Shown: piece after piece, positions 6,701 to 30,756 of the stretch | How the letters are laid out: every line of letters starts with the position of its first letter | Position numbering within the stretch: the stretch's first letter is position 1 | DNA from: Owenia fusiformis | Taxonomy: Eukaryota > Annelida > Polychaeta > Sabellida > Oweniidae | Direction: 5' to 3' | NCBI GenBank assembly: GCA_903813345.2 | Contig: CAIIXF020000006.1 | Coordinates: 32,961,524-33,025,523 of the forward strand | DNA: 64,000 nt | The notes under the pieces: generated by a model | What the model was told of the DNA's origin: nothing | The model's input: only the letters and a program-made list of their open reading frames with translations | The model's database searches: none | Program-made: the position numbers and the translations under genes

Positions 6701-9700
6701 AGATGAATAATGACACTTTACTATGGTCAAAAGCAATATCTTCCAAAAAACAAACAATGAAAAATAATATTGGAACAGAACTAAAAATAACACTGGAAGT
6801 CATTTTGGGAGTCACTGTTGCTGTTCCATTACCTTTGAGAATACTCTTCTCAATAATAAATTTGCACTAATGGGATGATATGGATATCAACCCCATATCA
6901 TCCTGCTTATCATCCCAATATCAGTCGTGGTCCCAAATATGTGATTTATCATTTGCTGTTACATACCTGATACTGCTTTGACTATATGGTATGATACAAA
7001 AGAATACCATAAAAATGGTACTTTGTAATTAATCCCTTGGTATTTTGGAATGATATATCATATTTTTATCCACTCATTGTAATTGATTTATGATAATCAT
7101 TCGTATATTGATATCATATTCATTCATATTCATCCGATGGTTTATTTAAACGAGAGTGACATTCCATCAAATATGGCCTTTAACTCTAAAGTTCCAAGTC
7201 TTATTTTTGAAGTAAGCATTAGTTTTGTCTGATTTTTCATGTAACTGCTCTTCTGGATATAGGAATAATTTCTTGCAAAAATCATATATGTTTGGGGTGG
7301 GGATGGGGGCCTATACCAATTTCCTAAAATTGATTATCAAAGTCAAGAAATAAGAAGTTGATTCAGAAAATGCTTTCATGAATGACCCGATTACTACATT
7401 TTTTAAATATTGCACAAATATATGCTGATACAGAGAGTTTATTACTTTGATTATAATTACTGCATTACTTGATTGCATTTTAACATCATCATATTCGATG
7501 TAATGATCAAAATACATAAATCTACCGTTAATTAAAGGGGCAAAAAGGTCTGTAGAGAAAAAATTCAACATTTTTACTTTTTCTGAGCTATCAGGGCAAC
7601 ATTTGGCTTAAAATCTTCATTGTCAGCATTAAGAAGTGTAAACTCAGTTCAAAGCTTCTATAATGGGAGTCCCACTTATAGATTTTTAAGATCCATCACG
7701 TTTCAAGAGGAATATCAGCTGAAATAATGTTCATCCAGGGGTTTCTTGGGAGAAATTAAAAATATATATTAGTCTTGATGAAATATCCAAACTTGAACAT
7801 ATTTTGACACTGGTTCATGATCGTTGAATTGCACTAATTGTTGCACCTTTAAAAGAAACAAAGATTTGTCTATATTTTGTTATACCCTTAAAGATGCATT
7901 ATGCCACAGGTTTCTCCCCCAGACGATCAACGATGTCCTTGTGTTATTGCTCATATAATATCTCACATACGAGATACCATGGATATATCTTGAGAATAAC
8001 TTTTGGGTATATTATTGTCGAATTATCGCCCACAAGCGTCTTGAACCAGGGAGCCAATCAGGTTTATGATAAACAAATTCAACTGTAGTTTTTTACCAGT
8101 TGACGTTTAACAACTGAGAAATCAAACATTGCGTTACGTCGTGAATACCGACAATGTTAGTGTGTTTTTCTTATTGTTTCATATTAATGAACTTAAAGGG
8201 GCAAAGTGCGTAAATGAAGTCTCACTTTTGTTCTTCATAGTATTTCCAATGGATTAATAAGTACCTGATCTTTTATTTGACACCAAAAACAGCTCAAACA
8301 GACCACATCAGAGTTGACACTAGATCATGAAAAAATATTTTTGATCCATCAATTTATAGATGCCAAGTTTTTAGCAATACCATAGAAAGATGGCATTGTT
8401 GTTTGCATTAATTGTCCATTCATTTTTGAAAGGATTTTCAACCATACACCATCTTTTAGTCCAAGAGTTATTTAAAAACATACACTTTGTGAAAAGTGGT
8501 AATTCACTTCTTTTGGTCTCTGAACTTCAAATGCTGTTTTCTATGCAAGTAATTTTTTTTTCACTTCAGTATTGACCCAAATTAAAGCTTTTATCATATT
8601 TGATTGACTGTGTGAGTGACATGTCTCAAATAATAGTTTGTCCCTTTTCCTTAAAAAATAAGCGCATTGCCTGTTTAATGCAATGTTACGTGCGTTTTCT
8701 CATCGTAATCCAAACTGACTAACAAGAATGAAATTGGTCTTCTAACAACTGAGACATTGTCAACATTATCTTCTTACTATATAGCACAGTGGTCTGTCTA
8801 GCTGTCCAGACATCTCCACCAAGACAGTTAGATCTTGGGCCATCATACTTTGTCATCATACTAATTGGGTCGGTGGTCATGCAAGGTCAGGATCGTCTAA
8901 GGGTCAAAGGTCAATATCTAGGAATTTGCCTTTTTAAGACCCCTGGTCTATGCTGTGACCCTTGAAGTAATTAAGTAACCTGAGGTCAAGGTCAACTTTA
9001 TTGGTCAAGGTCATCCCAAGGTCAAAGGTCAATATCTTGGTATTTGGCGTTTTAATGCATCCGGGGACTATAATGCTCTTGTTGATCCATTATTAGGTAG
9101 CCTGAGGTCAATGTCATTCCTTGGGACGTGCTGTCACCCTTGGTGACCACAGGTAAGGTCACCTGAGGTCAATGTCATTCATAGGCCAAAGGTTAATATC
9201 TAGGTATTCATTGATTAGGTGACCTGAGGTCAACGTCAGTGTTTATGAATCAAGGTCATCTCAAGGTCAAAAGTGAATATCTAAGTATCTGGCGTTTGTT
9301 TTAATTACCTTTAAAGTGCTATGACCATTGGCGACCCAATATTAGGTGTCCTGTGGTCAAGGTCATTCCGTCAATATCTAGGTATTTGTACTTTAAAGAC
9401 CCTGGGGGCTGTTGTGACCCTTGGCGACCCATGATTAGGTGACCTGAGGTCAAGGTAAATGTAAATGGGTCAATGTTTTCTCAAGGTCAAAGGTCAATAT
9501 CTAAGTATTTGATATTATAAGGACCTTGGCAGCTGTGGCTCTTGGTTATCATTGATTGGGTGACCTGACTTTATTCCATTTTTCCTTGAGAAAATATGAT
9601 AAGGGCCTTGGAAAATATCATATTGACACTCAGGCTATCGCCCTCGGACAATATTATATTTTCCTTGGTCAATATCATATTTTCCCACGGAATAGAATTC

Positions 9701-12700
9701 ATATTCCATCCCTTCCATTGAATAACCTCTATTTATTCCATAATACTACTGTTTTCCCAGGGAAATATGAAGGAATAAAAATCGTATTGAATCGTATTAC
9801 ATGAAAAAATCGTATTGTCCCCGGGAAAAAAATCGTATTGGAGCGTATTACATGGAAAAATCGTATTGTCCCCGGGACAAAAATCGTATTGGAACGTATT
9901 AACCTATTTTTGGTTTTCCCGGTTATTTTTAACCTTGACTAATTGATAAAAGCATTATCCAAATGTAACATTTTAAGGAGGAATGTTATATGGAATAAAT
10001 AGGTTATTTCTGGTCGGGATTGAATATGGGTTTTATTCCTCGGAAAATATGATATTGACCTTGGGAAATATGATATTGACACTCGGTCGCTGCGCTCCCT
10101 CGGTCAATATCATATTACCCTTCGGTCAATATCATATTGTCCCTCGGAATAAAACCCATATTCAATCCCTCCCAGTAAATAACCTATATTTATTCCATTA
10201 TAACATGTTTTCCCTGGGAAATAAACAGGGAATAGAATTGATATTCAAAAAATCCTGTATCAGATCAGCCAAAATCCCCTATCAGATCCCGTATTGAATC
10301 CTGTCAGCCAAATATACAGGGATTGAATATGGGTTTTATTCCGAGGGACAATATGATATTGACCATGGGAGCGCAATATTATATTTTCCGAGGAATAAAA
10401 CACATATTCAATCCTGACCAGAAATAACTGATTTATTCCATGATAAACATGTTAGCTTAAAAATAACCGGGAAACCAAAAATAGGTTAATAATTAGTTCC
10501 AATACGATTTTCTCGGGGAAAATACGTTTTTTCGTGCAATACGCTCCAATACGATTTTTTCCCGGGGACAATACGATTTTTTCATGTAATACGATTCAAT
10601 ACAATTTTTATTCCTTCATATTTCCCTGGGAAAACAGTAGTTAAAATTGGAATAAAATCCCGTATTAATAGTATTTTGTTTTTTTTCGTTTCGGGATTTT
10701 ATTCCAATTTATTACTGTTTTCCCAGGGAAATATGAAGGAATAAAAATCGTATTGAATCGTATTACATGAAAAAATCGTATTGTCCCCGGGAAAAATCGT
10801 AATCCAAATCCAATTCATTGTTGAGTATGTACTCTCAAGGGAAAGGAGAAGTGATAACAGTTACCAATTGATTTATAAAAGGACTTCAGGTGTTATTCCT
10901 AGTCATCATTTTTCATGTTTTAACAGTTATATCCATGTTATGCATATATTCTCAATATTTCCAAAATTGTTTATTGTTTTTACATCCATCAGGTGATTTT
11001 TGTGGTATATGTTACTCTTGACCTCGGAAGAGATATCATCCTTGCGATATTCCCCATATCAAATCCCTCCTTGTAAATACAGGGTGTCCAAAAAAAAACA
11101 GGACCGTAAGAAAGTTGAATAACTCCGTCAATTTTGCATATTTTGCCTTGAAATTTGAGAATTATTAAGTTCATTCAATGTGAATTTTGTTCTGAAAGTT
11201 TGATGATAATCTGTTTATTCTGTCAAAAACTACAGTCCTTTACAAAACATGCTCAAAGTGGGCACTTCTCCTCTCTATGCACAAACGAACCCTGCGAACA
11301 AAGCTGTTAATGACCCTCACCTATACACATTAATGTGGATGGTAAATATTGGGGTAGTTATTGCCCTCTTAAGAGTGTTAGGGGCCTGTCAGTATACACA
11401 TTGGCTTTGAGAAATCCTCAAAGATAAAAATTTGGGGGATTTAGATCAGGCGAATGAGCTGCCCATATGGTTTGCGTTCTGCAACTGATGAGCTGACCAC
11501 CAAAGCATTGCCTAAACCATTTCAGCATATCATTTGCTGTGTTGGGGTGGTATTGGCTTGTTGAAACCACTGCTTAATTATCTCCTTAGATGTCCCTTCT
11601 GGTGCTTAGTGACCTCCAAAACTTGGTGAGACCTTAATGGTCCTTGTTCATGGTGATAGCAAGTCCCCAGTCACCTTCGATCCAAAAGGGACTAATGATT
11701 CCATGTTTCCTCATTGCCACCCAGGGAGTGCATTGTTCAGAATGCAATGGATGCTGTAACACTTCATCAGGAGGATGTAAGCCCCAGTAGCAATTGTTCT
11801 TGGAACAAACTTGTCCATTCAGAAAGAAATGTGTGAAGGAGGATCATCAACAGCTTTGTTCGCCGGATTAAATTGTGCATAAAGATGAGATTTGCACATT
11901 TGGGGCATGTTTTGTAAGGAGCTGTAGTTTTTGACTCAATTGGTAGATTATAATCAAACTTTCACAACAAAATTCACAAAGAATGAACTAAATAATTCTG
12001 AAATTTCAAGGCAAAATATGCAAAATTGATGGAGTTATTCAACTTTCTTACGGTCCTGTTTTTTTTTGGACACCCTGTAATTACTGATCCCCCTCCATTT
12101 ACTTGTCTTTTGTACTAAATAATAGATATGTCTTTTATCTATGGCTATTGAAAATGGTATAATGTTTCTTGCCAAAAGTTATTTTGGAAAAAACCTTCTG
12201 TCAGTTTTAGGGTCAATGTTTGAACTTGATTATTAAAGAGCTAAATGCACGAATAATGACTAAAAGCTATTATTAAATTACAATTTACAATGAATATACA
12301 TGCAGTTATCTGCTAGATATTTTTTAAATATGTTTACAAAAAGAAATGTGGTACTTTAAATAAACATTAAGATCCGACAGAAAATGATAATTTTATTTAA
12401 CTAAACACATGGATGTGATTACTTTGACTTTTTGTGGCAATTATGTCAGTTATGACGCCATGATTAAAACGCTTGTGGGCTATTTTGTATAAATCATACT
12501 TTATCAAATAGGTAAAAGCATTACCTTTTATTTGATACCAAACATTTAATCATCTGACGAAAAATGAAAATGATACCTCAAGATAAAACATACCTCGAAC
12601 CTTCTTTTTTGTTGATATTTCTTTCAAAAAGGATGAGTTTCAAAACAATTTTTGTTTGTGCATGTTACACCATTTGGTCTCATAAAAAATATGTTGGACC

Positions 12701-15700
12701 GAAATGGCACATTGCATACATCATTTTAAAGCTTCTATCATACTCTTTCAAATTGATATGAAAAGTGGGGAAAATACATCATGATTTTAAATAATGGGAC
12801 CTTTATATAGGTACATAACCAATTTTTACATTAACATATTTTGAAAATTGTCAGTTATGACGTCACAATTGCTATGTTAACGAGCTAGTTTACATTCTTC
12901 ATACCTCATTATAAAGGTGGCATCATAAGCTTTCCTTTGATACCCATATCATAATTATCTGATGATTAATAAAAAAGATACATGCAAATACATGTTTTTC
13001 ATTAATAATGCTTGTTAAAAATGGTTGTTATTTATAACGCCGTTTCCATAGCAACGGCCCGAGTGAAAATTTTATTTTTTCTTGAATTCCTAAAGTATGG
13101 TATTGGGGCTTTCCAATGATACCAAAATTTCGGTGGGGGTCAAAAAAAATATTAAACTCTCATTTATATCTGAATTCCTACTCGTCTAATAAGGTAAAGG
13201 GCAAAAATTCAGCAAATGCCTGTTTAAATCCCTTTTTATTTTACGTTTTAACCACTTTCTGGATAGGTCAGAAAAATAAATGTTTGCTTCCTTGAATCAA
13301 ACACTGCCAAATTTTATAATTTGATTGTACGTATTTCCAAAATGTAGCCATTTGTGTCCTATGATGGAAATATTGTGCTTCATATTCAATTCACTCATTT
13401 TTTCACCCAGTTTCCACAGTAAATATTATTTATTTATATTGTGAGTGATATTTATACTTGCTGTCTTTAGTGGAATGTACTAAAAACCCTTCGACCCTTC
13501 GACCCTGCGACCTACGACTTACAGCGTGTCAAGAATTTTTGAAATATATTTTTATAAAAACCCTTCGACCTTCTACTTCAGTCCATATGAAGTTGCTGGA
13601 AATATTACTTTGTGTATAGAACTTAAGAATCTGTCCCAAGAGAGTTAAAGATATTTAAAGCTGGACTTTGATCGGAGCCGGCGATATGATTTTGGAAAGG
13701 TTTCTAAATGAAGAACGTGACGTCACTTCCGAATCATAGCATTCAAAATGAGTAGCGTTTAATTCATAAAATCACGGTGGTCTAGCGGAAGAATGCTCGC
13801 TTAGCACGCGGGAGGCCCGGGTTCGAATCCCGCATTCGCCTTTTTATTTTTTTAACTAAATGATTGTTCTTTGACATTACGCAGATAATTTTTTAGAGCT
13901 TGAAAATGTAAAAACAATATATGTCAACATATTGAGTTTTGGAGCGATGTGCAGGTTTAATGTATTCAAGCACATTCGAATGTGAACGTTTCTTACCTCC
14001 TCAGTAAAAATATTTGTGCTTTTCCCATCACATTGTAACAGTGGCGCATCGTGCATATTTCAGGAGGTCAAATTTTTTATATAGTTTAAAGAGAACCGTC
14101 TTTTGATTTTATCAACTTTGATTCAATTTGGATTTGTATAGTTAAGAATCTAATGCCAACTAAATAAGTAGATTCTTTGTTTTGCATCCTACAAAATCCA
14201 AAGCATACGAGGTTCTAAGGCTAGAGTACCGACAATTGTCGGTACTCTACAGTGGCGGATCCAGGAACCAACAAGGGGGGGGCCCAAATTTGAGGCCAGA
14301 GAAAAACCTTACGCACTTGCGCGGAAAAAAATTTTGGGCCCCTAAAACTGAAAAGTGGGCCCAAATTTTGAAAATTTGAGGCCCATTTTCTTCAAAATTT
14401 GGCCTAAAATTAAAAAAATAAGGCCTTAGAAGGCCCACTAATGACCAAAAGGCCCACTTTTTGGGGCCTTAAGGCCTTTTTGCCTAAAATTTTTTTGGGC
14501 CCAACTTTTTTTTCTGGGCCAACCTTAGGGGGGGGCCCGGGCCCCATGGGCCCCCCCCCCCCCCCGGATCCGCCATAGCTCTAGACTCTAATGTAGTGGC
14601 ACGTTAGAGGACCGACAAATAAATTGTCTGTACGGGAGATATGCTGTGTTTACACGCTAGAGGACCGACAAATATTGATTTTCGAATTTTCTGGCGCATG
14701 CGCAATGCGCGGGGGGATATTTCAGATACTGTATAAGTGGTATTTAATCCGAAAATCCAAAGCATACGAGCATACGAGGTTCTAAGGCTAGAGTACCGAC
14801 AATTGTCGGTACTCTACAGTGGCGGATCCAGGAACGTTAGAGAGCTATTAATGCAGAGTAAATGGCTATATATATTCTAAACAGACAGGATATTTCTCCT
14901 GAGCCGATCAGGCGTAGAAAGGGGCGTTTGCTACCCATTAGATAGAAGAAAATAGCTAGAATGTTTTTTATTTGAAGCTTATGGTATGAGGTTCCATATC
15001 CATCTGCCAAAAGGTATGACCTCTATATAGTCCATTTAAAAACCTGTGGTATCATTCTAAATAACCCATAGTTGGCTTCTAGGGTACCTAGTATGCCACT
15101 ATTTGGTATCAAAATAAAGAGGAGTTCAACTTTCATTTGAATTACGAAAATAGCGATGTAGGTGAAAATAGTTCCGAACGTGAGCATGTTTACTACGCGT
15201 TTGCCCGTCATATCAGAATTGAGGAAATGGTAGCAAACGCAAGTTACAATAAACGGACGCTGATATCTCAAAAAGTAACCTGACTCCCTATAATTTGATG
15301 TAGGTCAATCGAACCCCTATATGGACAGGTGCATTTTGATATATAACACTATGGGGGTAAGCTTCAATTTTTGTTGAAATAAATTATGGCTCACTACAAG
15401 TTAATGCCTGTACGATTCCATACTGCAAAAGAAGCACTATGCCCCCCCTCAAAAGAAAAAAGTAGGTCCTGCCGGGATTCGAACTCGGGACCGAGTGTGT
15501 TCGAGTCGTGCTCCCTAACCACTAAGCTACCAGTGATGAGGTTTTTTCGAAAAGTAAAAGTAGTGGATTTATTAATGAAATTGTCGGCTCTCTAGCAAAA
15601 ACACGTAGCAGCTACTTGCGTACCGACAATTGTCGGTTCTCTATCTGGCACTACTAGGTGACGATAGAGTGCTGACAATTGTCGGTACCCCAGCAAATAC

Positions 15701-18700
15701 CCCTGGACAGTCTTCAGTACCGACAAAATTGTCGGTCCTGGAGCCACTCCGATATGAAACATTTCAGAACTAGATAACAGCAACGCGAGGTGGAGCAAAT
15801 CCCATCAAACTTTTGATCTCAAAATCGTTCAACTACTTTTCAAGTTTTAGTAAAAAAGTAAAATAAGACGAAAAATTTCGAACGCAATGCGTGACATATA
15901 CATAATTCGCGTGAAAAGTCCGAACGAAATGCGTACGTTTTGTTTTCGGCGTTCGTATTTTTGCTGTGTAGACGAACTTTTTTAGAAATTTTTCTACTGA
16001 AACATTTTTGCTTGACAATTACCAGGTAAAATGCGTATTTGCGTGCACAGGGAGCTCAAGTTGGAACTATACATAATCGAATAGTAAACTGGACTGGGAA
16101 ATCAGAGGTCGAAGGGTTTTTCAATAAAATATATTCCAAAAATTCTTGACACCTAGTAAGTCATAGGGTCGTAGGTCGAAGGGTTTTTAGTACATTCCGT
16201 CTTTAGTGTATAATTACAGCATAAAAATGTAAGAACTTTTTAGTATGAGTTTTCTAGCGTTCAGAACTTTGATTCATCACGTGCATTGCATCAATGAACT
16301 TGGCAATATTCAAAATTCTCTGATTTATATAATAAATTAGGGATCATTTTGCTGTTGTATTCCAATCAGATAGTTTCTACTCGGAAAGTATGCTTCCTCT
16401 TGTCACCCATCTCAAAATAGATCTTTTCTGTATTCTCAGTCTTTTTTTACTCAAGATTAAGTATACATCTCACATATTTCAATCTTTACATGTACCTCAA
16501 ATATCTTAGATATTCAAAAAATTATAAAAATTACTGAAATACTGCAAAAATTAACTCAAAAGTTGGGGGGTTCGCATAATTGCTGTAAAAGGTGGGTTCG
16601 AATTTTTTGAGGCAAGATTTGGGGTGGGTTCGCACGAACCATCAAACCCCTCTCCCTACGGCTCTGAGGTGGGACCCCGATTAAGACAAAGCTAAATTAA
16701 ATCAAAAGTACAAAAAATGACTGCCATATTTTTTGATAAAGACACATGTTTTTAAAATCTGTTTACCTTGTATATGAATTGTATATCTTAACTAAAGAAA
16801 CATGTCAAAGTTAACATCACACATAAACGCATTTTTCATAACTATAAATTGGAGGTGCAATGGATCCCCAAAGCTACATGAAGGGTGTGAAGTTGAAGGC
16901 TAATTTTTGAAAGTTTCAAGGAGTAGCCTTGCAACAGTCACACATTTGCAAGAATCCAAAATTTCTACAAATCATCTTACCTTCCCAGGAACAACGAAAG
17001 AGCATGAAAATGTGCACTTCTTGCATTGTTAGAGTATAATAAAGCTCAAACCATTATTTCAGGGGTGAGAAGAAATGAGATGTCATGTATTATCATGATG
17101 AGAACAGGCTTTGTATAAAAAACCTCCTACCCACGTACCCTCGTACCCACGTACGTGGGTCCTGACCCAGTCTTTAAAGAGTTAAATCTTTAACATTTTT
17201 TAAACATTATTCCATCTCAATGTATGCTTAATTATGGATGAATTTATGTACCCATATGCCTTTATTTCTAGATCGGACATCTGTCTCGTCATAAAATAAA
17301 GCCGGCATTGCATAATGTTCATTTGAGCTATTTGAGTGTTGTTTTTGATATATCAAAGCGATTTTTTGTTGATCGGGCAGTCTTACAGTGTACAACCAAT
17401 CTATTGCTTGGCGCAAATTCGACCAAGCGCATATATTTAGTATTTTTGTCAGTCATACTTTTAATAGTCCTATACCTTTTAATTTACCATAATGTATATA
17501 GAATTTTGTATAAATGAAGTGTAATTATATCTATGACAATCTAAATAACGTTACAAAGATCGATGCGCAGATCCACGTTTTATTGAGTTTGAATCTCACG
17601 CGTCATGCACGTGTAGTTATTAGCCGCCTAAACTTCCCGGGACATTTACAATCTGCATAAGGTAACAGGAGGCACGGATTGCACTGAACGAAGGCTAGGA
17701 GATTGCTAATCAGCACTGATGTGTTATACAGGTAAGACTGCCCGATCAACAAAAAACATTTCAACATATCAAAAACATAAATCAAATAGCTCAAAAATAA
17801 TGAACATTTATGCAATTCCGGCTTTATTTTATTTTACTAGAGGCATGTCAGACCTATAAATAAAGGCATATGGATGCATAAATTCATCTATAATTCAGGA
17901 TAAACTGAGATTGAATAATGTTTTAAAGATCTAATAGCAAAGGTTTTGCAAAAATAAATCAATGTAGTATAAAACAAATGTATGTATAATGAAGAAATAA
18001 ATATATAATGAAAAAAATAGATATGTGTTTGTAATATTGGTATAAACTTAAGTGTCACTATCTCTTTCATTTTTCAACAAATATAGGCTCACATGACATG
18101 TGACGCGGGGCAGGCAATTTTGATCTATCGTAGACCATATCAGTATCAAATTGCTGATATTTCAACCTCGTCTTGCGAGGCCATTTTGATTTGAAACATC
18201 TTGAATTTGGTGTCAAAATGAAGCTGGTCACGCCCACTTTCAGAGTTATCAATGAATCATTTACTACGACTACTATATTCATTTAGGAGGCGTCTAAAGT
18301 TAACCAATCAGAAAGACAATTGTTCCATATATGGCAGTTCATTAACATATTCAGTGTTTACTACTGCTTTTCCCGTCATGACAACACGAGTAGTAACCAA
18401 TCAAGATGCCGTATTTTATCACGTGAGTTCAGAGTGACATGCACGCGACATGTTGTCTGAGGTGATCGCGATGTTGAACAATTTCTTCTCGGAATTTGTC
18501 CAGAGAAATCAGCGATTCTAAATTAAGGTAGGATCTGCCATTTTTTCCTGTACACGTTATAACTTATCTCTATCGAATCCTAAAGTTTTGGAAGAAGATA
18601 TGAAGCGTAGGTTTAAAAACGAAGCGATTAATTTGACGATCTGATTTTGCAATTTTCAATGGCCAATTTACTGCAAGTCTTCATTCCAGAACTCACATTT

Positions 18701-21700
18701 TGAGTTGATTCTCCGTCATAGTTCTTGTCTAAAGTCCACATATCTGCTCTCTTTCTGCCATACTTGCACACATTTCCCCTCCTTAAATTGAATTCATTCA
18801 AATTACACCCTCTCGCCGATTTATATAGCCATTTCCCAGAACCCGGGAATCAGAATCGCTGATGTTTGCCATATTGAACATATTATATGTACTGTAATAT
18901 CTGTACATTGCCTGCTACGCGTAATGGTCACGTGACTAGCGCGATACAGGAAAAATGGGGAATTTCGAAACAACAATTTTTGGGCACTTTTATTGCAAAT
19001 TTCAGGTATTTATAAAGTGTTTGTGGTATAAAATATAATCCACAGACATAAATGAACATCCAAACTGCATATTTCATTAAGTTTTGGAGCCTTTTTTGTT
19101 CTTAAATTAACATCTTTAAACATTTAAAAATTTAACTCTTTAAAGACTGGGTCAGGACCCACGTACGTGGGTACGAGGGTACGTGGGTAGGAGGTTTTTT
19201 ATACAAAGCCATGAGAACATACCTCTAAGTCAAACATGTTCAGCATAGTGAGAGTGTTATCACAGAGGACTGTCATGTATTATCATGATGAGAACATACC
19301 TCTAAGTCAAACATGTTCAGCATAGTGAGAGTGTTATCACAGAGGATTGTCATGTATTATCATGGTGAGAACATACCTCTAAGTCAAACATGTTCAGCAT
19401 AGTGAGAGTGTTATCACAGAGGACTGTCATGTATTATCATGATGAGAACATACCTCTAAGTCAAACATGTTCAGCATAGTGAGAGTGTTATCACAGAGGA
19501 CTGTCATGTATTATCATGGTGAGAACATACCTCTAAGTCAAACATGTTCAGCATAGTGAGAGTGTTATCACAGAGGACTGTCATGTATTATCATGATGAG
19601 AACATACCTCTAAATCAAACATGTTCAGCATAGTGAGAGTGTTATCACAGAGGACTGTCATGTATTATCATGATGAGAACATACCTCTAAGTCAAACATG
19701 TTCAGCATAGTGAGAGTGTTATCACAGAGGACTGTCATGTATTATCATGATGAGATCATACCTCTAAGTCAAACATGTTCAGCATAGTGAGAGTGTTATC
19801 ACAGAGGACTGTCATGTATTATCATGGTGAGAACATACCTCTAAGTCAAACATGTTCAGCATAGTGAGAGTGTTATCACAGAGGACTGTCATGTATTATC
19901 ATGATGAGATCATACCTCTAAGTCAAACATGTTCAGCATAGTGAGAGTGTTATCACAGAGGACTGTCATGTATTATCATTATGAGAACATACCTCTAAGT
20001 CAAACATGTTCAGCATAGTGAGAGTGTTATCACAGAAGACTGTCATGTATTATCATGATGAGAACATACCTCTAAGTCAAACATGTTCAGCATAGTGAGA
20101 GTGTTATCACAGAGGACTGTCATGTATTATCATGATGAGAACATACCTCTAAGTCAAACATGTTCAGCATAGTGAGAGTGTTATCACAGAGGACTGTCAT
20201 GTATTATCATGATGAGAACATACCTCTAAGTCAAACATGTTCAGCATAGTGAGAGTGTTATCACAGAGGACCATAATTCTGTTTAACGCAGACGCCACCT
20301 TCAACTGCACTACTGGCTTCTTCTACAAACAATAATATCAGGATATAACTGTATATATAGAGCTAGATCATGATCTTGATTCAAGGACATGTTACCCTCC
20401 GCCCTCAACCAACATACCTCATCTCCACAAGGTCTTCAAATCAAAGTGGCACTACACATAATTTCAGTGCTCTTAAGCAAAAAACAAAGTGATAATGTTA
20501 ATAAGCATGCATTATGTGTTACCTTCTCTCAGCAATATAATTAAACACTCTAAAACAGGATTGAATATGTGTCATCATTGCCCTTGTATTATATATATAT
20601 ACCATCAATATTATTACTTGTACTTGTTTTTCATTATTATTACTTGTTCTGTGTTTATTTCATGTTATAAATTTTGTTTCATGTATTTTGTGATTGATTT
20701 GTTTTTTATGTTAAATGTGAAATCCATTTCATTATGGGAACAAAAGTGACACAATAATATACCCTCTGTAAAGAAAAAGAAGGTGCAAGGTCCTTTACCA
20801 ATCTTTTTTATTTTTTGTTATTATCATACCAAACTTTCAGGGGTGTAATGTATGAATACTTTGACCCAATGGAGAAAGTTCCAAAGAATTTGGTAAATAT
20901 GGTAAAAAGTTAGAATGGATTGAATATAACAACTCCCAAAATCGTGAGTGTGACTTTTTACCATAAATTGACGTCATAAATTTGAGAAATCCAAAACTGA
21001 GCAATCTGCTCAAGAAGAAGATCTTCGGAGACATTAAGTTAAATTGTTGGTTACATTTAGAGGAATACACCATGTTAAAAAGTCTTCAATCCAATAAAAC
21101 TTTGTGAAAAATATCAGTTATAGAATAAAAGTCTGATTAATTACAACCATTTTGTGTTAGAATTTGAGGTAATATTCTTCAGATTCAGAGGTCTCTTCTC
21201 AGTTCAGAATTAGGGGTAGGGGTAACATTTATTACAATAAACTTAAAATCGTAAAATCACTATAACCCTTAATCTTTCTCAAGGACCCATAAATATGTTA
21301 TACATCCTATACTTAGCTTATGCATACCAAAATTGAAGTCAGATGTGATATATAAATATGTTTATTGAGCAAAATGGTTACATCCTATCCTAATTTCACT
21401 GCTTTTTAAGGCGTAAAATTGTCTAAAAATCATGTTTTAGACGGGTTTTGGCAGTCTGGAATGGGCTTTACAATGGTATGTAGAATATTTCATATAGAGA
21501 ATGATGTCCTAGGCTTATAGGAAAATGTATTACACTGTATAATAGCAAATTGTAATTTATGACGCAATTTCAAGAAAAAAGTCACATAATTGAGACAATG
21601 TGTTAAATCATTGCTAACTTTGTTAAATTTACGTCTAATTTTTAAATATTCTTTTAGTATATCTGGTAAGAGGGCAATGGGAACTCCAGGAAATTCTGAT

Positions 21701-24700
21701 ATTTCACACTTTCTATTTTTCCAAATTTCCTTTCAAAGTTTCCAGACAACACAGGAGCTACCATTGACCTGTTTCCAGGTTTACTAAAAGTAGACAATGT
21801 AATGATACTTTCCTGAAAAAGCAAGGAAATATACACATGCCTTCATACTTAATTTTGTACCAGAAAATAACACGTGCAGGTATAGCAATTTTTTAACAAA
21901 ATGTTACCTTCCAGCTGAACCTTAAGTAGCTCATATACGGAAGGTTTTAGAAAAACGTTGTATCATTACACTACAATATCAAAATTCAAAATAGTCAATA
22001 ACCATACCAATATTATAAGAATATATGCCCGAGTATTGTAAGTTACAATGAGAATCAATGATGTTTGGTCCAGTTCCATTTTGAGAATCTATTTTCTATC
22101 CTGATGATACGGATTGGAATCAATGTTTCTTTCCTAACTTACTTCCATATAATCATACAAGGATTGGAAACAGGAATTCAAAAAATAAAGTAATCTTTTT
22201 TATTTCCTGATTCTTGCCGTTAATTAGCTAATCTTGGTGACTTGAAATTCCACAGCTGTATTATCTAGAGTTTTATAGTATCCCATCACTCACCCCATCA
22301 CTATAAGTGTATCTATATTAGCCTCATTTGACTGTTTCCTGTCAACTGGTAAGATTCAGTGTGATTTTTGGCGATGCATGACATGATCAGTATTATGTAC
22401 ATCAGTCTAAAGGATATCCAATCAAATAGCAGGATATGATCATGTGATCAATCACAAACACATGTTTTCAACAGCGAACACTGTGATGCCTGTTTATGAA
22501 GAGTTGGTCACGTGACCTTCTGCCAAAGCACTGACTGACTGTTTCCAATCCTGGTATATTCATTAGGAAGTTGAATTGCGCAAGAAATCGTGTCTCAAGT
22601 CCATGCATGATGAGTTTAAAATGCAGGACCTCAAAAATGTCTTCCTCTATTCTAATTTTCAAAATGATATATATCCATGGATCAGCAGTTTTTGGCACCA
22701 GAACCCATTCTAATAGAAATGTGAGACTACATGTATTTTGTTTAGACATTATTCCACACTCTAAAGTCTTGGAGAGTTACTTTAACTTACCAATCCGAGG
22801 TATTTATGGCCCTGCTTTACACTATCATATATTGTCTTCCCATTAGGGAGGTGCTGCTCATCCACAATATAATGGACCACAAAACTGGAATTGAAAAACA
22901 TAAATGAATTTATGAATTACTATTGTCAATCCTAGAATTGCTGGTTATAGGACTGGCTTTCAAGAGATAAGGCACCGGGACCCTATTGAATTCCAGGACC
23001 ATCCCTACACATTGGAATGGGAGCCTCACTTGGAGGGCATACACTTTAACTGATGTATTGTAAGTTGGCATAACTATAATCAAACTTTAACTTTTTTCAA
23101 GACTCATTTAAATTATTTGAAGCAAGTGCAAAACCATACCATCTAAAAATAACAAGTATTGAGCTTTGCTGTAATTATGTATCTGTAATCAGTATCATTA
23201 TTTTATAGGGACTTTTTAAAGTAACACTTTATACTTACCAATCACTTGTGCCAATATACAGGTTTTTACCACAGCATTCAATGCATTCAATCTGTAAAAT
23301 AATTTATGTGTTCATATTGACACAAACAGGGTGTAGCAAAAGTATGGGACCCCCCCCTCCCTAGGCTGACATATACCAATGCCTTCAGAGTTTGTCTCAT
23401 TAACCAATTTAAGGCTTATCCAAAGTTACATTGATTTGCCAAGTTGAGGTTTAACTGTCAAATAGGAAAAAGTTACAGTCATTTCAAAATTTAGTGTTTG
23501 GCCAAAAATAAGTTCAGTTTTACACCAAATTAAGAGTCAGTGCAATCTTCCCTCCTCCTGTTAGCAGCAGCGATTCTTTTCATGTAGGATGGATACTGAG
23601 TTGGTAAAAGAGGACAGTGAGGGTAGATACGCCAAGGAAACTCTTCTAAAGTGCCTTAAAAAGGTTTAAATATAAGGACTACAAAATGTCACAACCCTAC
23701 GTTTAAGGTCACATCCTAATTAGTGTTGTCGCGATGTGCCATAATCGTACATCAATGCATCCGAGAAAAGTGCACTGAAATACCAAACGCTAATGCACTA
23801 AAATACCGAACAGAACATATTTAAAGCGAAAGAATATCAGAAAACATTGGAAAATGAAATAAGACATGAGAAAGGTAAGCGATTTGCGTCAAAATAATAT
23901 AGTTCATACACTACCAAGTAGCTGGACTGGACTAAACTATATCTTCGACTGTATACAGCAACCTCCATGTACAAAGTTATGCTGTCTAAATTTTCCATGA
24001 ATCAACAACCCTAATCATGTGATTTAATGTTGATTTAAAACTGAGTTCGCAATGAAAATGCACGAAAATCTAGTCCATAGTCATTGATCTGATTCAGTGA
24101 TTGATCGGAATCTCACCCTAGATCTAGCTATAACTATGTTTGATCATTTCAGCGTTCAGACTTCTCACCTCCGGGTATCCGATCGATGCTCCTGCATCCA
24201 CTAAACTCTGATTCATATTTATCTGGTAAAATATTTGTATTTTCATAATGAATTGTGCAAGATTTGTTTGTGAAAAGTGCATTTGTTTTGACTGTGCATA
24301 ATAATGAGCTAACACTGCAGGGCCGACGTTGATTGGGTCAAAGGAGTTGGGTAAACTAGCAACAGAGAGTGCCCCAATTGAAGTGTGAAAAAACTTTTTT
24401 TAAGAATAGGAGAAAAAAACATCAGAAATGCATAGATTGAAGTCTATATTTTTGGGTAGTATTTTAAAAAAAATTAGAAAAAATTGTTACAGTGTCTGGA
24501 GACCTTCAAAGAGGGTGGGGGCCAGAAGGAAAAAAATTCACATATTTTGCAACCCTCTTGATGAATTCCAATTTACTCAGCTATGAATGAATGTTTTTGA
24601 TTTATCTGTCCAGGATTATGTAAATATATATTTATTTGATCCATACATACAATTGATTTAAACAATATGTACAGTTTAGAGGTAAGTAAAGCTTTGAAAG

Positions 24701-27700: not shown

Positions 27701-30700
27701 TCAATGTATCTTTGGATAAGCTTTAAAATGATATATGACACATACTATGGAGAAATTGGTATATGTTTGCATAGGGGGGTCCTATACTTTTGAGACATCC
27801 TGTATTTCACTATTATTATATCATATTTGAACATAGAATCAATGATTTGATTTTGTGTTGATACTGACAATACATTTCATTAAATCATATTTGAACACAG
27901 GAGCAATGATTTGATTTTGCGTTGATATTGACAATATACATTTCACGAACCAACAGATGGACTGACCAATGGACAGACGGACCAATGGATGGAAAGACGT
28001 CAATCCCATAGGCTCACTGTGTGAGTCAATAAGACGTGTTCTGTTCTTAATCATACTCAGGTTTGCTCCTAGCACTGAAATCAGTGATTTTGTGGTGTTA
28101 CTCCTTAAAAAATTAGTACCGTGGGTACTAGGCTCACATGGTGTTGCTCAAAAGTGAAAATAAAAAAGATGGGTATAATTTTTTGCAGATTTTTTGTGAC
28201 AAAATTATTTCATACAACTACTCTTTACAAAGACATGGCTTTTTACAATGCAGGACACCTGAACTTATTTGTAAAGCTAGGAAATGGGCCAAAAGTGAAT
28301 TTCCCGAGACAAAAATGGTGGCCATTTTGAAATTAGGCGAGATTTTGAAGCGTCACAGGTTTTTTTTCTTTATTGATGTTGAACAAAATTATTTTAAATC
28401 GGGAATCCTATCTACAGAGGATTTAAAAAGTGTTAACAGAGGTTTAAAACTTGCCACTTTTTTGGACTGACTGATCGAGAGACAGATGGACGAATCAATG
28501 TTAACTAAAATGGCTGAAAATAAAAAAAAACTGATATAATATTTTGCCAATTTTTTGTAACAAAATTATTTCATACAACTACTCTTTACAGTGACATGGC
28601 TTTTTACAATGCAGGACAGTTGAAATTATTTGTAAAGCTATAGGAAATGGGCCAAAAGTGAATTTCGCGAGACAAGAATGGTGACCATTTTGAAAATAGG
28701 CGAGCTTTTGAACCAAGAGTCATAGGAGAGTTTTTTGTATTGATGTTGAACAAAATTAACTTAAAACAGGAATCCTATCGACAGAGGGTTTAAGGCAAAT
28801 GGTCCAAAAGTGGATTTTGCGAGACAGATGGACAAATCAATGTTGGCTGAAAATAAAAAAAATGGATATAATTTTTTGCTGATTTTTCGTAACAAAATTA
28901 TTTCATACATCTACTCTTTACATTGACATGGATTTTTACAATGTAGGACACTTGAAATTATTTGTAAAGCTAGGAAATAGGTCAAAAGTGAATTTCGCGA
29001 GATAAAAATGGCGGCCATTTTGAAAATAGGCGAGCTTTTGAGCCAGGAGTCATAGGGGAGTTTTCTGTATTGATGTTGAACAGAAATAACTTAAAACAGG
29101 AATCCTATCGACAGAGGTTTTAAAACGTGCCACTGTTGTTGACGGAAAAGTGGATTTCACAAGTCAGATGGACAAATCAATGTTAACTATAAAATGGCTG
29201 AAAATAAAAAATATATATAATTTTTCGCTGATTTTTTGTAACAAAATTATTTCATATATCTACTCTTTACATTGACACAGATTTTTACAATGTAGGACAC
29301 CTGAAATTATTCGTAAAGCTAGGAAATGGGTCAAAAGTGAATTTCGCGAGACAAAAATGGCGGCCATTTTGGCACAAATGGCACATTGTCTCATTAAATA
29401 AACCGCAGTTGACGCACTGAATGAAACGCCACTGACAAGTACACTAAACAAGTCATATCTTATTCCACATTTAATATTCCCAGGAATACATTTTATACAG
29501 TTATCAATTTATTGGACAACTTCGTTACACATAAAAAATAAGATTGCAAACACAAATGGCCAATGCAAAGAAATGTTTCAATCATCGATTAGAACATGAA
29601 CATTAACGTACAATGTTACATGAAATCGTTTAATGGTACAAGGCCTGTCAACTTGGGAACACCCTAACATGAGTGACTTACAAATGTTGAACACCTTCAT
29701 TCAAAACATCGGACACCCTCAACAGGCGGGGGGGTTATTTTTGTTGGTTTTTGGAACATATTGAAATTTGATATGGGAACATGTTGATATTTGAGGGGGG
29801 GGGGTACTCCCATATGTTGGCTATATGGGCATGTGCCGCAAAATTGTGTCACTTTTTCGCCAAAAAATCCCTATATGTGGGTCCCATTTTGAAGAAAAAA
29901 CCTAGATATGGGTCCCATTTTGAAGAAAAATCCCTGTCCCATTTTGATGAAAAAATCCCTAGAACTGGGTACTGTTTTTGAAAAAAATCGCCGAAAGTGG
30001 GTCTTGTTTTTTTTAAAAACTACCTTGAAGTGCGTCTATTTACCTTGTAATCTCTTCTTTAAGTATTACGGTAGTTTGAATGGTTGCATGATATCCATTA
30101 TTGACGCTGTAATTCGAATTTTCCCGGGACATTTATTTCAAATTTTCAGAGCGTGAAGATTATTGATCAATATTTACCCTGTAATATCCGTGCCATCATC
30201 GGGAGTGGCGTCACATTCTCAGAAAAGGCATTTGACTTCGGGAATAAACATTTGAACAATGGAAATAGCCGAAGCACAAACAAACAAACACTCCATATAG
30301 ACTATATACGCTCGCTTATTTAATGCTTTTTATCAACAGACGCTTTCTTGGATGTGTGGCTTTAGTGATTGGAGTTGAAGCCAACAACAGTAAGCATCGT
30401 TTGATGTATGACGTCACATGTGATAAACCGGCTCCAAAATCAAGGAAAAATAATTTTTCCGAAGATCTTGTGTCTTGTCCTTAGAGGTAATCTGGCTGCA
30501 CAGAGGTCTGTGGATGTAGGTAGATATTTTGAGTCTCAGCGGCTACCCTCCCCCTGTACAAAAATTTGACCAGTATGATCCAGACCCGGGATCCAGAAGC
30601 CCCAAGAAAAAAAATTTGTTTCAAAAATAGGTCATAGATCTAAGAAAAATTACTTTCATGACCTCTTGATCCTTGGCCTACCTGAGTTTTTGCTCTGTCA

Positions 30701-30756
30701 GAAAGAAGCTTCGTCCTTTCAATCGTTGGCACCAATTCAAATGCTTTTATGCTCAT
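650..30756 (-). CDS. TGFBRAP1: TGFBRAP1 (Vps3-like CORVET subunit), 5' part, 6 coding exons
   Basis: Six minus-strand exons join in phase to give 171 residues: 30682-30756, 23239-23291, 22791-22884, 20224-20322, 941-1027, 650-754. The product starts MSIKAF and continues through IECIECCGKNLYIGTSDC, KKPV, ALNR, VLCDN and TGAKVKGVTAFCLNQNP, the order seen in the N-terminal CNH domain of vertebrate TGFBRAP1. Family knowledge: TGFBRAP1 is the Vps3-like subunit of CORVET, which tethers early endosomes through Rab5, and it also binds TGF-beta receptors. The clathrin-like repeats and C-terminal end lie beyond base 1. All introns have GT-AG ends. Intron 1 is 7.4 kb and intron 4 is 19.2 kb, both filled with transposons. 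The start codon is chosen because MSIKAF matches the family start and the following exon joins in frame. VPS39 is the nearest paralogue but fits less well. Confidence 0.93.
941..1027 (-). CDS. TGFBRAP1: TGFBRAP1 coding exon 5
   Basis: 87 nt, 29 codons, from PIVTGAKVKGVTAFCLNQNP to FSVE. Acceptor TTTTCAG, donor GTAAGA, phase 0 on both sides. It matches the SGARIKGAATFALNENP segment of vertebrate TGFBRAP1. It is 19.2 kb from exon 4. Confidence 0.92.
1242..3908. mobile_element. DNA transposon with ~270-bp inverted ends, 5-bp TSD
   Basis: Terminal inverted repeats of roughly 270 bp (left from CACTGGTGATCCGC at 1242; right ends in its complement at 3908) flanked by ACTAT at 1237-1241 and 3909-3913. 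The ends share about 85-90% identity by eye. The interior holds no recognisable transposase. It contains a smaller inverted-end insert at 2214-2705 and two direct copies of a ~100-bp stretch near 2965 and 3435. Ends starting CACTGGT with a 5-bp duplication recur at 36857-37374. Five-base duplications are known for Transib and some hAT groups; I do not assign a superfamily. Confidence 0.85.
2214..2705. mobile_element. Nested MITE-like insert, ACACCCCAGTCACATTT ends
   Basis: ACACCCCAGTCACATTT at 2214-2230 is matched by its reverse complement at about 2689-2705. The interior is GC-rich and repeats GCCGCNNGCGG-like and CTACGCTCGCCG motifs in both orientations. The target duplication is not clean (AAGTTACT against AAGTCATT), so the ends are approximate. 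Confidence 0.55.
3920..5095 (-). pseudogene. 5'-truncated LINE, C-terminal reverse transcriptase end, frameshifted
   Basis: Minus-strand frames at 4963-4538 and, after a frameshift near 4580, to 4266 encode ARLRTG, then LPLHIETGRW, then a CKLCDGNFVEDEIHFAVQC zinc-ribbon motif typical of the C-terminal end of Jockey/CR1-type LINE polymerases. The 3' UTR includes CATAAGCCGACATCGGCTGG and the element ends in an (AAATA)n tail at 3920-3955. Reverse transcriptase and endonuclease domains are missing by 5' truncation. Not functional. Confidence 0.75.
8865..9575. repeat. Degenerate tandem array rich in AGGTCA half-sites
   Basis: Repeated phrases CAAGGTCAAAGGTCAATATC, GGTATTTGGCG and TTAGGTGACCTGAGGTCA recur about six times in roughly 700 bp, with unit length about 120-150 bp. 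GGTCAAAGGTCA matches the DR1 arrangement of nuclear-receptor half-sites, but this repeat type is probably just satellite-like DNA inside the transposon. Confidence 0.75.
9576..10800. repeat. Complex fold-back: interleaved palindromes
   Basis: The block is built of short phrases in both orientations: CGGTCAATATCATATT, CAATACGATTTTTTC, GGGAAATATGAAGGAATAAA and GGGATTGAATATGGG. Left half (9740-10000) and right half (10430-10640) are inverted copies, and 10700-10797 repeats the left unit directly again. The centre lies near 10100, beside the palindromic GGTCGCTGCGCTCCC. There is no coding content. Confidence 0.8.
11080..12077 (-). mobile_element. Decayed mariner/Tc1-type transposon inside the right arm
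   Basis: 998 bp with inverted ends CAGGGTGTCCAAAAAAAA flanked by TA (11078-11079, 12078-12079). The minus strand, read through several frames, gives a degenerate transposase: TANDMLKWFRQCFGG, QLISCRTQTIWAAHSPDLNP, then FLKANVYTDRP. This matches the catalytic-core SPDLNP and LWGYLK region of mariner/IS630-type transposases. Frameshifts and stops make it dead. It interrupts TAAATA-ACTACTGACCCCC homology of the 5473-13188 arm, so it inserted later. Confidence 0.85.
13775..13841 (+). tRNA. tRNA-like sequence, Gly-type body with AGC anticodon (probably pseudo)
   Basis: GTGGTCTAGCGG (A box), an anticodon arm CTCGC-TTAGCAC-GCGGG, and GGTTCGAATCC (B box) follow the layout of tRNA-Gly, including the shared GCGGGAGGCCCGGGTTCGA. 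The anticodon reads AGC (Ala), not a Gly anticodon. The acceptor stem cannot be paired (upstream ATCACGG against downstream ATTCGCC). It is followed by T-rich sequence. It is probably a tRNA-derived relic or SINE head carried inside the Mutator-like element. Confidence 0.5.
14250..14578. mobile_element. MITE with GTGGCGGATCC ends, 5-bp TSD
   Basis: CAGTGGCGGATCCAGG at 14250 and CCGGATCCGCCATAG ending at 14578, flanked by CTCTA at 14245-14249 and 14579-14583. The interior is G- and C-run rich with many GGGCC blocks. A 70-bp segment that includes its left end and the preceding palindrome (14192-14262) is duplicated at 14758-14832. Confidence 0.7.
15463..15537 (-). tRNA. tRNA-like sequence on the opposite strand (degenerate)
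   Basis: On the minus strand GGTAGCTTAGTGGTTAGGGAGC (A-box region) is followed after about 25 bp by GAGTTCGAATCCCGGC (B box). The anticodon stem has a mismatch and the loop lacks the usual T before the anticodon, so no anticodon can be named. It lies in inverted orientation to the tRNA-like sequence at 13775, in the same element. Confidence 0.45.
17107..19210. mobile_element. Mutator-like non-autonomous element, 9-bp TSD, in the array
   Basis: About 90-bp nearly perfect inverted ends starting GGCTTTGTATAAAAAACCTC, flanked by the 9-bp duplication ATGAGAACA (about 17098-17106 and 19211-19219), which is part of the 77-bp unit. It therefore inserted into an existing array. The ends contain the palindrome CCCACGTACGTGGG. 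No transposase is visible. A separate fold-back sits inside at about 17226-17898. Confidence 0.87.
17226..17898. mobile_element. Nested fold-back element, ~175-bp arms
   Basis: The left arm (about 17226-17400, with CCATATGCCTTTATTT, AATAAAGCCGG and GATCGGGCAGTCTTAC) is matched by an inverted right arm (about 17722-17898). The spacer is about 320 bp. The exact target duplication could not be fixed. No coding content. Confidence 0.7.
20224..20322 (-). CDS. TGFBRAP1: TGFBRAP1 coding exon 4, end multiplied into tandem array
   Basis: 99 nt, 33 codons, from KKPVVQLKVASALNR to NMFDLE, between a TTTGTAG acceptor and a GTATGT donor. Phase 0 at both ends. The last 48 nt (16 codons) plus the donor and 29 nt of intron form the 77-bp unit that is repeated about 13 more times downstream on the minus strand (19211-20223). 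Homologous to the KKPV and LNR-LVLCDNS segment of TGFBRAP1. Confidence 0.93.
20323..22790. other. TGFBRAP1 intron 3, no recognised element
   Basis: Between exons 3 and 4. AT-rich DNA with short microsatellites (AT near 20590). No convincing open frame, inverted ends or known repeat seen. Confidence 0.6.
22791..22884 (-). CDS. TGFBRAP1: TGFBRAP1 coding exon 3
   Basis: 94 nt after a TTCCAG acceptor, ending at a GTAAGT donor. The first base completes the Cys codon of exon 2; the exon then reads FVVHYIVDE and ends YLGL in phase 0. It corresponds to the CFVYHFLLEE to HLGF segment of the vertebrate protein. Confidence 0.92.
23239..23291 (-). CDS. TGFBRAP1: TGFBRAP1 coding exon 2
   Basis: 53 nt between a TTTTACAG acceptor and a GTAAGT donor. 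It encodes IECIECCGKNLYIGTSD plus two bases (TG) of a cysteine codon completed by exon 3. It matches the conserved IECVECCG and VGT segment of the CNH domain. A mariner-type element begins only 36 bp upstream of the acceptor, at 23327. Confidence 0.93.
23721..23818. mobile_element. hAT-type fragment, TAGTGTTGTCGCGAT end
   Basis: From TAGTGTTGTCGCG this stretch follows the reverse complement of the hAT MITE at 33114-33293 (GATGTGCCATAATC, AAGTGCACTGAAATACC, ACGCTAATGCACTAAA). Homology is lost after CGAACAGAACA, so the second end is missing or the element is longer. Confidence 0.65.
24340..26153 (+). mobile_element. DNA transposon remnant, AAAGGAGTTGGGTAAAC ends
   Basis: A 17-bp perfect inverted repeat, AAAGGAGTTGGGTAAAC at 24340-24356 and its complement at 26137-26153. 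It encloses the SWIM zinc-finger relic at 24930-25435, which is probably its own decayed gene. The target duplication is not clear. Confidence 0.65.
24930..25435 (+). pseudogene. Relic of a transposon-type SWIM zinc-finger protein
   Basis: First frame (24930-25087): MAKCYSCCICRK, then SPRKRRKV, then QIICNNCGLDSKR, with paired cysteines of zinc-binding type. It is broken by an (AATT)n microsatellite. A second frame from about 25104 reads RHTGSKQY, then GWYCECKSGARVVGCCA, then IWYIGFARH, a stop, and a tail ending SSSDDE. GWYC-C-SGxRxxGCC-H is the SWIM-type finger seen in transposon-encoded proteins of invertebrates; the final His is Leu here. Stop, frameshift and the lost His mark it as dead. 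The family is inferred from motif layout only. Confidence 0.6.
26230..27492. mobile_element. TA-flanked MITE with CTGTACGCCCGG ends, hAT insert inside
   Basis: Inverted ends CTGTACGCCCGGTATTATTC (26230) and complement (ending 27492), with TA on both sides. The subterminal parts repeat TTTCGCGATTT-like phrases. An 8-bp-TSD hAT element (26729-27364) divides it. Open frames on both strands over the left half are shadows in this non-coding repeat. Confidence 0.8.
26729..27364. mobile_element. hAT-type MITE, 8-bp TSD GAGCCCCG
   Basis: Perfect 8-bp duplication GAGCCCCG at 26721-26728 and 27365-27372. Ends TAGTGCCTTACGGTAATG and the complement of TAGTGCTTGCAACGGTAATG. TA-starting ends with 8-bp duplications are typical of hAT. 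The interior contains CCGGTAATAAAATCC and CCGATAATC stretches in both orientations. No transposase. Confidence 0.85.
27826..27950 (+). repeat. Two tandem ~62-bp units
   Basis: ATCATATTTGAACA, CAATGATTTGATTTTG, GTTGATA and GACAATA recur in order at 27826-27885 and 27887-27947. A stretch of GGAC-like tetramer-rich DNA (27955-28000) follows. Confidence 0.7.
28138..29400 (+). repeat. ~355-bp tandem repeat, about 3.5 copies
   Basis: Each copy carries, in order, ATAATTTTTTGC, ACAAAATTATTTCATACA, TACTCTTTACA, TGGCTTTTTACAATG, AGTGAATTTC, ATGGTGGCCATTTTG or its variants, GAATCCTATC and a GACAGATGGAC end. Copies begin near 28138, 28505, 28850 and 29195; the last is partial. It lies in TGFBRAP1 intron 1. 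A 110-residue open frame in copy 1 is not conserved in the others. Confidence 0.85.
29690..30035 (+). repeat. Dispersed repeat with GGGTCCCATTTTGAAGAAAAA units
   Basis: After a G-run (29795-29805), ATGGGTCCCATTTTGA-type phrases recur four times in degenerate form (29878, 29906, 29935, 29960). GTACTCCCATATGTTGGC at 29806 introduces it. No protein recognised. Confidence 0.6.
30682..30756 (-). CDS. TGFBRAP1: TGFBRAP1 coding exon 1
   Basis: 25 codons starting ATG at 30756 (residues MSIKAFELVP and on) and ending CAG before a GTAGGC donor (30676-30681). It ends in phase 0. The 5' UTR runs upstream at higher coordinates into a region with NRF1-like motifs. The MSIKAF start matches the vertebrate protein. 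Confidence 0.92.

Follow-up and report, generated by a model that had tools for sequence, protein, structure and literature searches.

A minisatellite spanning an exon end and its splice donor in the TGFBRAP1 orthologue of Owenia fusiformis, with a mirror acceptor array and similar arrays at other splice boundaries of the genome

We analysed 64,000 nucleotides (nt) of the annelid Owenia fusiformis (assembly GCA_903813345.2, contig CAIIXF020000006.1, positions 32,961,524 to 33,025,523 of the forward strand), hereafter the window, in which a 77 bp tandem array repeats the end of a coding exon together with its splice donor. Homology identifies the host gene as the orthologue of TGFBRAP1, a Vps3-like subunit gene. 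Searched by tblastn with a human TGFBRAP1 sequence, the minus strand yielded 17 collinear segments, which run from window position 30756 down into the adjoining contig sequence; the listing from which they were picked also contained copies of the array and some chance rows, and two of these segments extend into an intron and meet stops there. Past them come three more exons of the C-terminal part and a weak fourth match. The ordered segments, and a CNH domain match across exons 4 to 6 (E 1e-5, score equal to the cut-off), bear out an earlier note on this DNA that had named the gene as TGFBRAP1. A search of the whole genome with one exon peptide gave a single match, and the gene appears, as far as tested, to be single-copy and intact. 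Because the exon peptide matches once and the gene can be traced through its exon segments, the normal TGFBRAP1 mRNA is presumably made. A search of PDB with the peptide of exons 4 to 6 gave no match up to E 10, and a Pfam search with a late TGFBRAP1 exon found no meaningful family (Gasdermin, 0.032, below the cut-off).

All the exons lie on the minus strand. The coding part of exon 1, which starts MSIKAFELV (30682-30756; E 0.044), exon 2 (23241-23291) and exon 3 (22787-22892, trimmed by hand where the match ran on into the intron) were placed by tblastn with approximate ends. Exon 4 (20224-20322) has 99 nt and 33 codons, KKPVVQLKVASALNRIMVLCDNTLTMLNMFDLE, ends in phase 0, and was recognized from its open frame, its TGFBRAP1 match and an acceptor score of 6.6 at 20322. 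Intron 4 (1028-20223), about 19.2 kb long, has both the array and a transposon inside it. It is followed by exon 5 (941-1027; tblastn, acceptor score 9.8 at 1027), PIVTGAKVKGVTAFCLNQNPISNNPFSVE, which starts PIVTGAKVKGVTAF... in phase 0, and by exon 6 (650-754; tblastn). The acceptor had been put at 1028 in the earlier note, rightly, as the next exon begins at 1027 and the AG ends at 1028. All splice scores derive from a human frequency table.

Tandem Repeats Finder (TRF) places the array at 19211-20271, with a period of 77, 13.8 copies, 98% matches and a score of 2059. Read on the minus strand, each unit is made of 48 nt of the exon 4 end and 29 nt of intron, the donor included, and exon 4 itself ends ...GACTTAGAG/GTATGT. 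A script located 14 donors, GAG/GTATG followed by T or A, at 20223, 20146, 20069 and onwards to 19222, all 13 spacings being 77 bp. The authentic exon 4 boundary is the outermost, exon-adjacent copy, and the array comprises this boundary and 13 extra copies of exon end, donor and intron, the last of them cut by the transposon; the exon-adjacent, presumably authentic donor GTATGT occupies 20218-20223 (donor score 8.62). When 124 nt across the exon 4 boundary were searched against the genome, 14 matches resulted, all at this single locus. The unit and the 14 donors described in the earlier note are thereby exact to the base, and the exon homology of the unit, which that note had named as a point on which it could be refuted, is present at 48 nt per unit. 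The donor word, given there as GTATGT throughout, stands for 12 of the 14 copies, while those at 19915 and 19761 read GTATGA. Retention of one to 13 units puts TGA as the ninth codon past exon 4 in 13 cases out of 13, as had been predicted for every distal donor.

The units differ from one another by a mean of 1.67%, and 12 of the 78 unit pairs are identical. Variation is confined to nine variant cells with six distinct substitutions, and GT and the AG preceding it are unvaried; because the changes are so few, this preservation is uninformative on selection. Constraint on the exon part of the decoy units was not shown by cell (3/624 varied versus 6/377 in the intron part, Fisher p 0.089) or by site (3/48 versus 3/29, p 0.67), and neither was a two-unit block structure (two shared variants at lag 2, permutation p 0.082).

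In the fourteenth unit, the intron part breaks off after 12 nt at an inverted-repeat transposon of 2104 bp (17107-19210), whose terminal inverted repeats (TIRs), GGCTTTGTATAAAAAACC..., have arms of 87 nt at 99%. The element is bordered by a 9 bp target-site duplication, ATGAGAACA (right copy 19211-19219, left copy 17098-17106), which is itself array sequence. Past the transposon lies the remaining intron part of the last unit, 26 nt including the target duplication (17081-17106, minus strand), which runs on into TCTCATTTCTTC...; downstream of 17081 on the minus strand, the intron sequence lies outside the unit. The array is older than the insertion, because the transposon interrupts the last unit while the internal units hold an uninterrupted intron part. 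The left end of the transposon occurs in 39 other places at 98-99% identity to the window copy (40 scored of 971 first-look candidates), and from this near-identity the element is probably young. Target duplications of 9 bp flank three of the four other copies fetched, the fourth (L007) having no right end in the stretch fetched; these three measure 1535-1733 bp, and the family has near-identical ends and variable interiors. Mutator-like (MULE) DNA transposons have long TIRs and 9 bp target-site duplications. The window copy and three of the four others resemble them in both respects.

A second array lies outside the window, at C6:32929751-32933026, upstream of a late TGFBRAP1 exon near the 3′ end of the gene. 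It holds 35 copies of the 3′ end of an intron (...TTGTACTTGTAG/) with the start of a coding exon, spaced at 96 bp in 31 of 34 intervals (103, 98 and 98 in the others). The acceptor AG is kept in 28 of the 35 copies, with GTAA in six and GTGG in one. The last copy alone runs on into the real exon body (VLQLIPDNWSIGLLQSFLASTVRKHMHDFRTTRLQRML...), and if one of the 34 upstream copies were used instead, the reading frame of the exon would run into a stop after no more than 64 codons. The two TGFBRAP1 arrays mirror each other, donors lying downstream of exon 4 and acceptors upstream of the late exon, and in both the authentic site adjoins the exon body.

Similar arrays were sought across the genome with a donor pattern of three AGGTAAGT words 58-88 bp apart, which gave 466 + 164 matches versus 212 + 171 for the reversed control word. 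Among the matches listed, the donor pattern corresponds to 11 arrays on C1, C2 and the start of C3 (~101 Mb), and all 11 were fetched; TRF gives them between about 3 (L035, L038) and 43.4 copies (L034). By eye, ten of them resemble exon ends whose reading frame stays open as far as the first donor; L035 was rejected as an exon end, and its peptide was left out when the other ten were searched against Pfam. Matches at E<0.001 were obtained for five of the ten peptides: Neur_chan_LBD of Cys-loop receptors (L033, E 1.1e-12), MRPL52 (L037, E 4.2e-7), an HSP70-like protein (L038, E 1.6e-5) and, below their curated cut-offs, COR-B (L036, E 3.4e-4) and the C-type lectin family Lectin_C (L039, E 5.5e-4). 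The Cys-loop receptor exon also matched GABA and glycine receptor chains in PDB (best 6.7e-16), and the MRPL52 array, truncated in the stretch fetched, extends, among the matches listed, over at least 2.9 kb and at least 49 units of 59 bp. The L031 peptide has a weak LRR match (0.014, below the cut-off); its donor lies 102 nt from the edge of the stretch, and about 1.3 kb of other, apparently inserted, sequence separates the first copies of this LRR-like array from the main array. Pfam searches gave no match for the L029, L030, L032 and L034 peptides, and the single PDB match of the L030 exon (E 0.84) is not meaningful.

An acceptor search with three copies of the word TTTTGCAG gave 35 + 32 matches versus 17 + 32 for its control, and the flank was fetched for one array. 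This array lies in a PI3/PI4-kinase exon (E 9.7e-7), and its upstream copies end in a stop while the last copy runs on. Ahead of the first site, the open frames of the 11 donor arrays are longer than those of 10 control arrays (Mann-Whitney p 0.0007), a comparison in which the donor positions of L036 and L039 were set by hand and the control site was the first in each stretch. Against random positions, three of the 11 donor arrays exceed the 95th percentile of open length (72 codons). Open-frame length is a weak criterion, and it is the Pfam matches that carry the claim that splice-boundary arrays recur in this genome; the claim is one of recurrence and not of enrichment. Other likely genes with such arrays are L029-L034, L036-L039 and L050, including those for the Cys-loop receptor, MRPL52, the HSP70-like protein and the PI3/PI4-kinase. 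The transposon in the last unit, the mirror acceptor array and the recurrence in other genes go beyond the earlier note.

The sequence shows the anatomy of the array, the identity of the gene, the single locus, the mirror array and the recurrence, while we infer the donor used, nonsense-mediated decay (NMD), variation in copy number and the mutational process. In our judgement, with a probability of roughly 0.74, the array is a tolerated, mutation-driven minisatellite of the kind called a 'mirage' in amphioxus, and the exon-adjacent donor at 20223 is the one chosen. A 77 bp segment across the exon 4/intron 4 boundary would have been tandemly duplicated, then enlarged and homogenized by ordinary minisatellite turnover. 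Since everything gained lies beyond the authentic boundary, within the intron, the array would leave with intron 4 provided that 20223 is used. Most mRNA would then carry the normal joining of exon 4 to exon 5, the 13 further donors would be tolerated decoys, and NMD-prone transcripts bearing a premature termination codon (PTC) would make up a minor fraction at most. The same process would have acted on the acceptor side of the later TGFBRAP1 exon and in other genes of the genome. What distinguishes donor 20223 is position, as the sole donor that makes the 99-nt exon, and the late-exon acceptor array fits the same exon-adjacent rule. Selection need not be invoked, because a chance estimate already yields many donor-covering units. 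Sixteen 8-kb stretches held 16 arrays (period at least 20, at least three copies), or ~62,000 genome-wide, and seven arrays of longer periods only, or ~27,000; if the genome is assumed to hold 200,000 donors, chance would place 1925 or 842 units over a donor, figures that are rough and depend on the assumption.

Several observations weigh against this reading. The donor score is 8.62 in 12 of the 14 copies, a value reached by 1.16% of the 4485 GT sites in 84 kb (array donors counted), and 7.13 in the two GTATGA copies; as 12 donors score alike, nothing in the sequence as such would give 20223 an advantage. Local RNA folding gives it none either (z +1.12). Among duplicated identical 5′ splice sites, the intron-proximal one is reportedly often preferred (work attributed to Reed and Maniatis and to Eperon and colleagues), and such a preference would favour the PTC-making donors, which is the main risk to exon-adjacent choice. 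Counted by arrays among the matches listed, the donor pattern is not clearly above its reversed control, with 11 (~101 Mb) versus 10 (~108 Mb), several of the control arrays having short periods; because of these counts, and because matches inside one array are not independent, no enrichment is claimed. The rejected L035, with its open frame of 33 codons, is moreover inseparable by open length from L029 and L031, with 33 codons each. A separate idea, that RNA structure masks the distal donors, was rejected, since a folded segment of 330 nt was no better than its shuffles (86 of 100 at least as good).

Besides position and the late-exon array, two known systems lead us to favour exon-adjacent choice. 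For amphioxus mirages, reverse-transcription PCR and the Adh3 data are said to suggest that regular splicing is undisturbed, although the authors allow that the copies may be used as cryptic sites (PMC3087553). In human CBS, the name of a variable number of tandem repeats (VNTR) polymorphism of 31 bp at exon 13/intron 13, c.1444_1467+7(16_21) (PMC2630376; PMC5188458; PMC1395315), implies that the first donor is the normal one. By our reading of this name, the unit joins 24 nt of exon end to 7 nt of intron start, and its 16-21 copies set donors in a row after the authentic one. A review relates more units of this VNTR to lower CBS activity (PMC5188458), and by analogy a small dosage effect of unit number in TGFBRAP1 is quite possible.

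That the array works as a copy-number rheostat, as the earlier note proposed when it suggested that copy number could tune the yield of full-length mRNA, seems unlikely to us. The 13 distal donors would compete for the U1 small nuclear ribonucleoprotein and the exon 5 acceptor, and the resulting share of PTC-bearing transcripts, dependent on copy number, would set TGFBRAP1 dosage, as might be expected from 12 donors that are equal and strong (8.62) beside two that are slightly weaker (7.13), from a PTC at 13 of 13 retention lengths and from the reported relation between CBS units and activity (PMC5188458). The amphioxus arrays of the same kind, however, are reported to leave regular splicing apparently undisturbed (PMC3087553), and unrelated genes of the Owenia genome carry such arrays, which looks like mutation pressure rather than gene-specific tuning. 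Much less probable still is the scarless removal of units, singly or in blocks, from AG/GT to AG/GT with regeneration of the same junction, a form of recursive splicing. Every unit does begin with GT and end with AG (GTATGT...TTAGAG/GTATGT), so that no scar would remain, and the gain of introns by tandem duplication has been published (PMC4974935). Yet the AG before each donor scores ~1.7, which 33% of the AG sites in 84 kb reach, and a competing TAG two bases earlier (~1.5) would leave two extra bases and change the reading frame. Because the acceptor-like sites inside the units are weak (~1.7, 1.5 and 0.1 versus 9.8 at exon 5), the units should not splice among themselves, and internal mini-introns are unlikely.

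An origin from the transposon, with a captured host fragment amplified by the neighbouring element, is suggested by the fact that the element adjoins the array and is flanked by a duplication of array sequence, but we regard it as highly improbable. The element interrupts the last unit, so that uninterrupted units came first; the array unit is found at one locus versus the 971 first-look candidates (40 scored) for the element end; and the 18-nt terminus of the element, allowing up to two mismatches, is absent from 14 of 14 fetched stretches, some of only ~1 kb, around the mirror array, the 11 other donor arrays and the PI3/PI4-kinase array. We give as little credence to an assembly artefact, by which the unit number or the array itself would be wrong. 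The copy number of 14 is that of a single assembly, tandem arrays are error-prone, and one amphioxus mirage seems to be aberrantly assembled in a draft genome (PMC3087553), but here six distinct substitutions, spread over nine cells, set the units apart, the last unit holds a transposon, and similar arrays occur on several contigs.

Other repeats were noticed along the way. A 72 bp tandem repeat at 42651-43470 (plus strand), with units of 24 codons like SNIPEDQRDRMGARDGHDHRDGVR, is probably a coding minisatellite, lying in an open frame of 483 codons (42292-43743). A long inverted repeat at 62020-63822, with arms of 374 nt at 99% and paired 17 bp repeats GTCAATGTTAGGGAGCA, is perhaps another DNA transposon. 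At 50255-50578 there are 10 copies of a 32 bp tandem repeat, whose unit starts GTCACATG and ends with the reverse complement, CATGTGAC. One of the sixteen sampled stretches (L023, C11:10000167-10007998) consists of ~7.8 kb of a 210 bp tandem repeat, with 37 copies and 70% matches.

Returning to the tolerated minisatellite that we favour, a wider and more speculative proposal is that splice-boundary minisatellites form a genome-wide class in Owenia, in which conserved genes carry from three to at least 49 donor units in an array, or as many as 35 acceptor units. Were every array tolerated, the spliceosome would obey a strict rule that the exon-adjacent site wins, overriding identical competitors; where arrays were not tolerated, copy number might be a heritable, perhaps somatically variable, dial of dosage, for example that of TGFBRAP1. 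Identical splice sites in a row take sequence strength out as a variable, and in the natural series of donor arrays, together with the acceptor series, RNA sequencing would show whether position alone decides the choice and what level of mis-splicing a gene can bear. The arrays also bear on intron gain, for which mirages have been put forward as an intermediate step (PMC3087553). They caution, too, that in genomes of this kind gene models and copy counts based on exons may be erroneous.

The kind of array described here is already known, from the mirages of amphioxus, whose original report is said to be that of Canestro et al. in 2002, and from the VNTR of human CBS. The remark in the earlier note that exon-donor minisatellites are rarely described was partly wrong, as the class has a name, has a human example and recurs in this genome; a genome-wide account of such arrays, or a report of one in TGFBRAP1, was not found in the open-access literature, several of the searches being narrow. 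The CBS VNTR is like the TGFBRAP1 array in that its unit holds an exon end and a splice donor. It differs in its unit of 31 bp, against 77 bp with 29 nt of intron here, and in being polymorphic in people and reportedly tied to enzyme activity, where ours is read from one assembly. In human segmentally duplicated genes, internal tandem repeats at exon-intron boundaries are likewise minisatellite expansions that alter splice options, but with units that average 30 bp and are repeated four times, in recent paralogues, whereas TGFBRAP1 appears to be single-copy (PMC2812944). CBS 844ins68, a 68 bp duplicate of the intron 7/exon 8 junction in which the distal of the two sites is strongly preferred, shares the duplicated junction and has two copies only (PMC2630376). 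In the earthworm metallothionein gene, the minisatellites reported in the text available are intronic and not boundary arrays (PMC12783039).

In amphioxus, mirages are found in Adh3 and in the globin genes BflGb6 and BflGb9, with units of 10-72 bp in Adh3 and 150-160 bp in the globins (PMC3087553). The arrays of TGFBRAP1 share with them tandem units that run across an exon-intron boundary (48 + 29 nt in 14 copies at the donor, 35 copies at the acceptor) and an authentic boundary kept beside the exon body, be it donor 20223 or the last of the 35 acceptor copies. The homogeneity of the donor units (1.67% mean difference) is also compatible with the length instability of mirages, between alleles and in soma. 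The TGFBRAP1 arrays differ in size, with 14 and 35 copies against the 3 and 6 given for BflGb6 (PMC3087553), in the presence of two arrays in one gene, with recurrence sampled by a genome-wide pattern search, and in their host, for mirages were described in a cephalochordate and the present arrays belong to an annelid.
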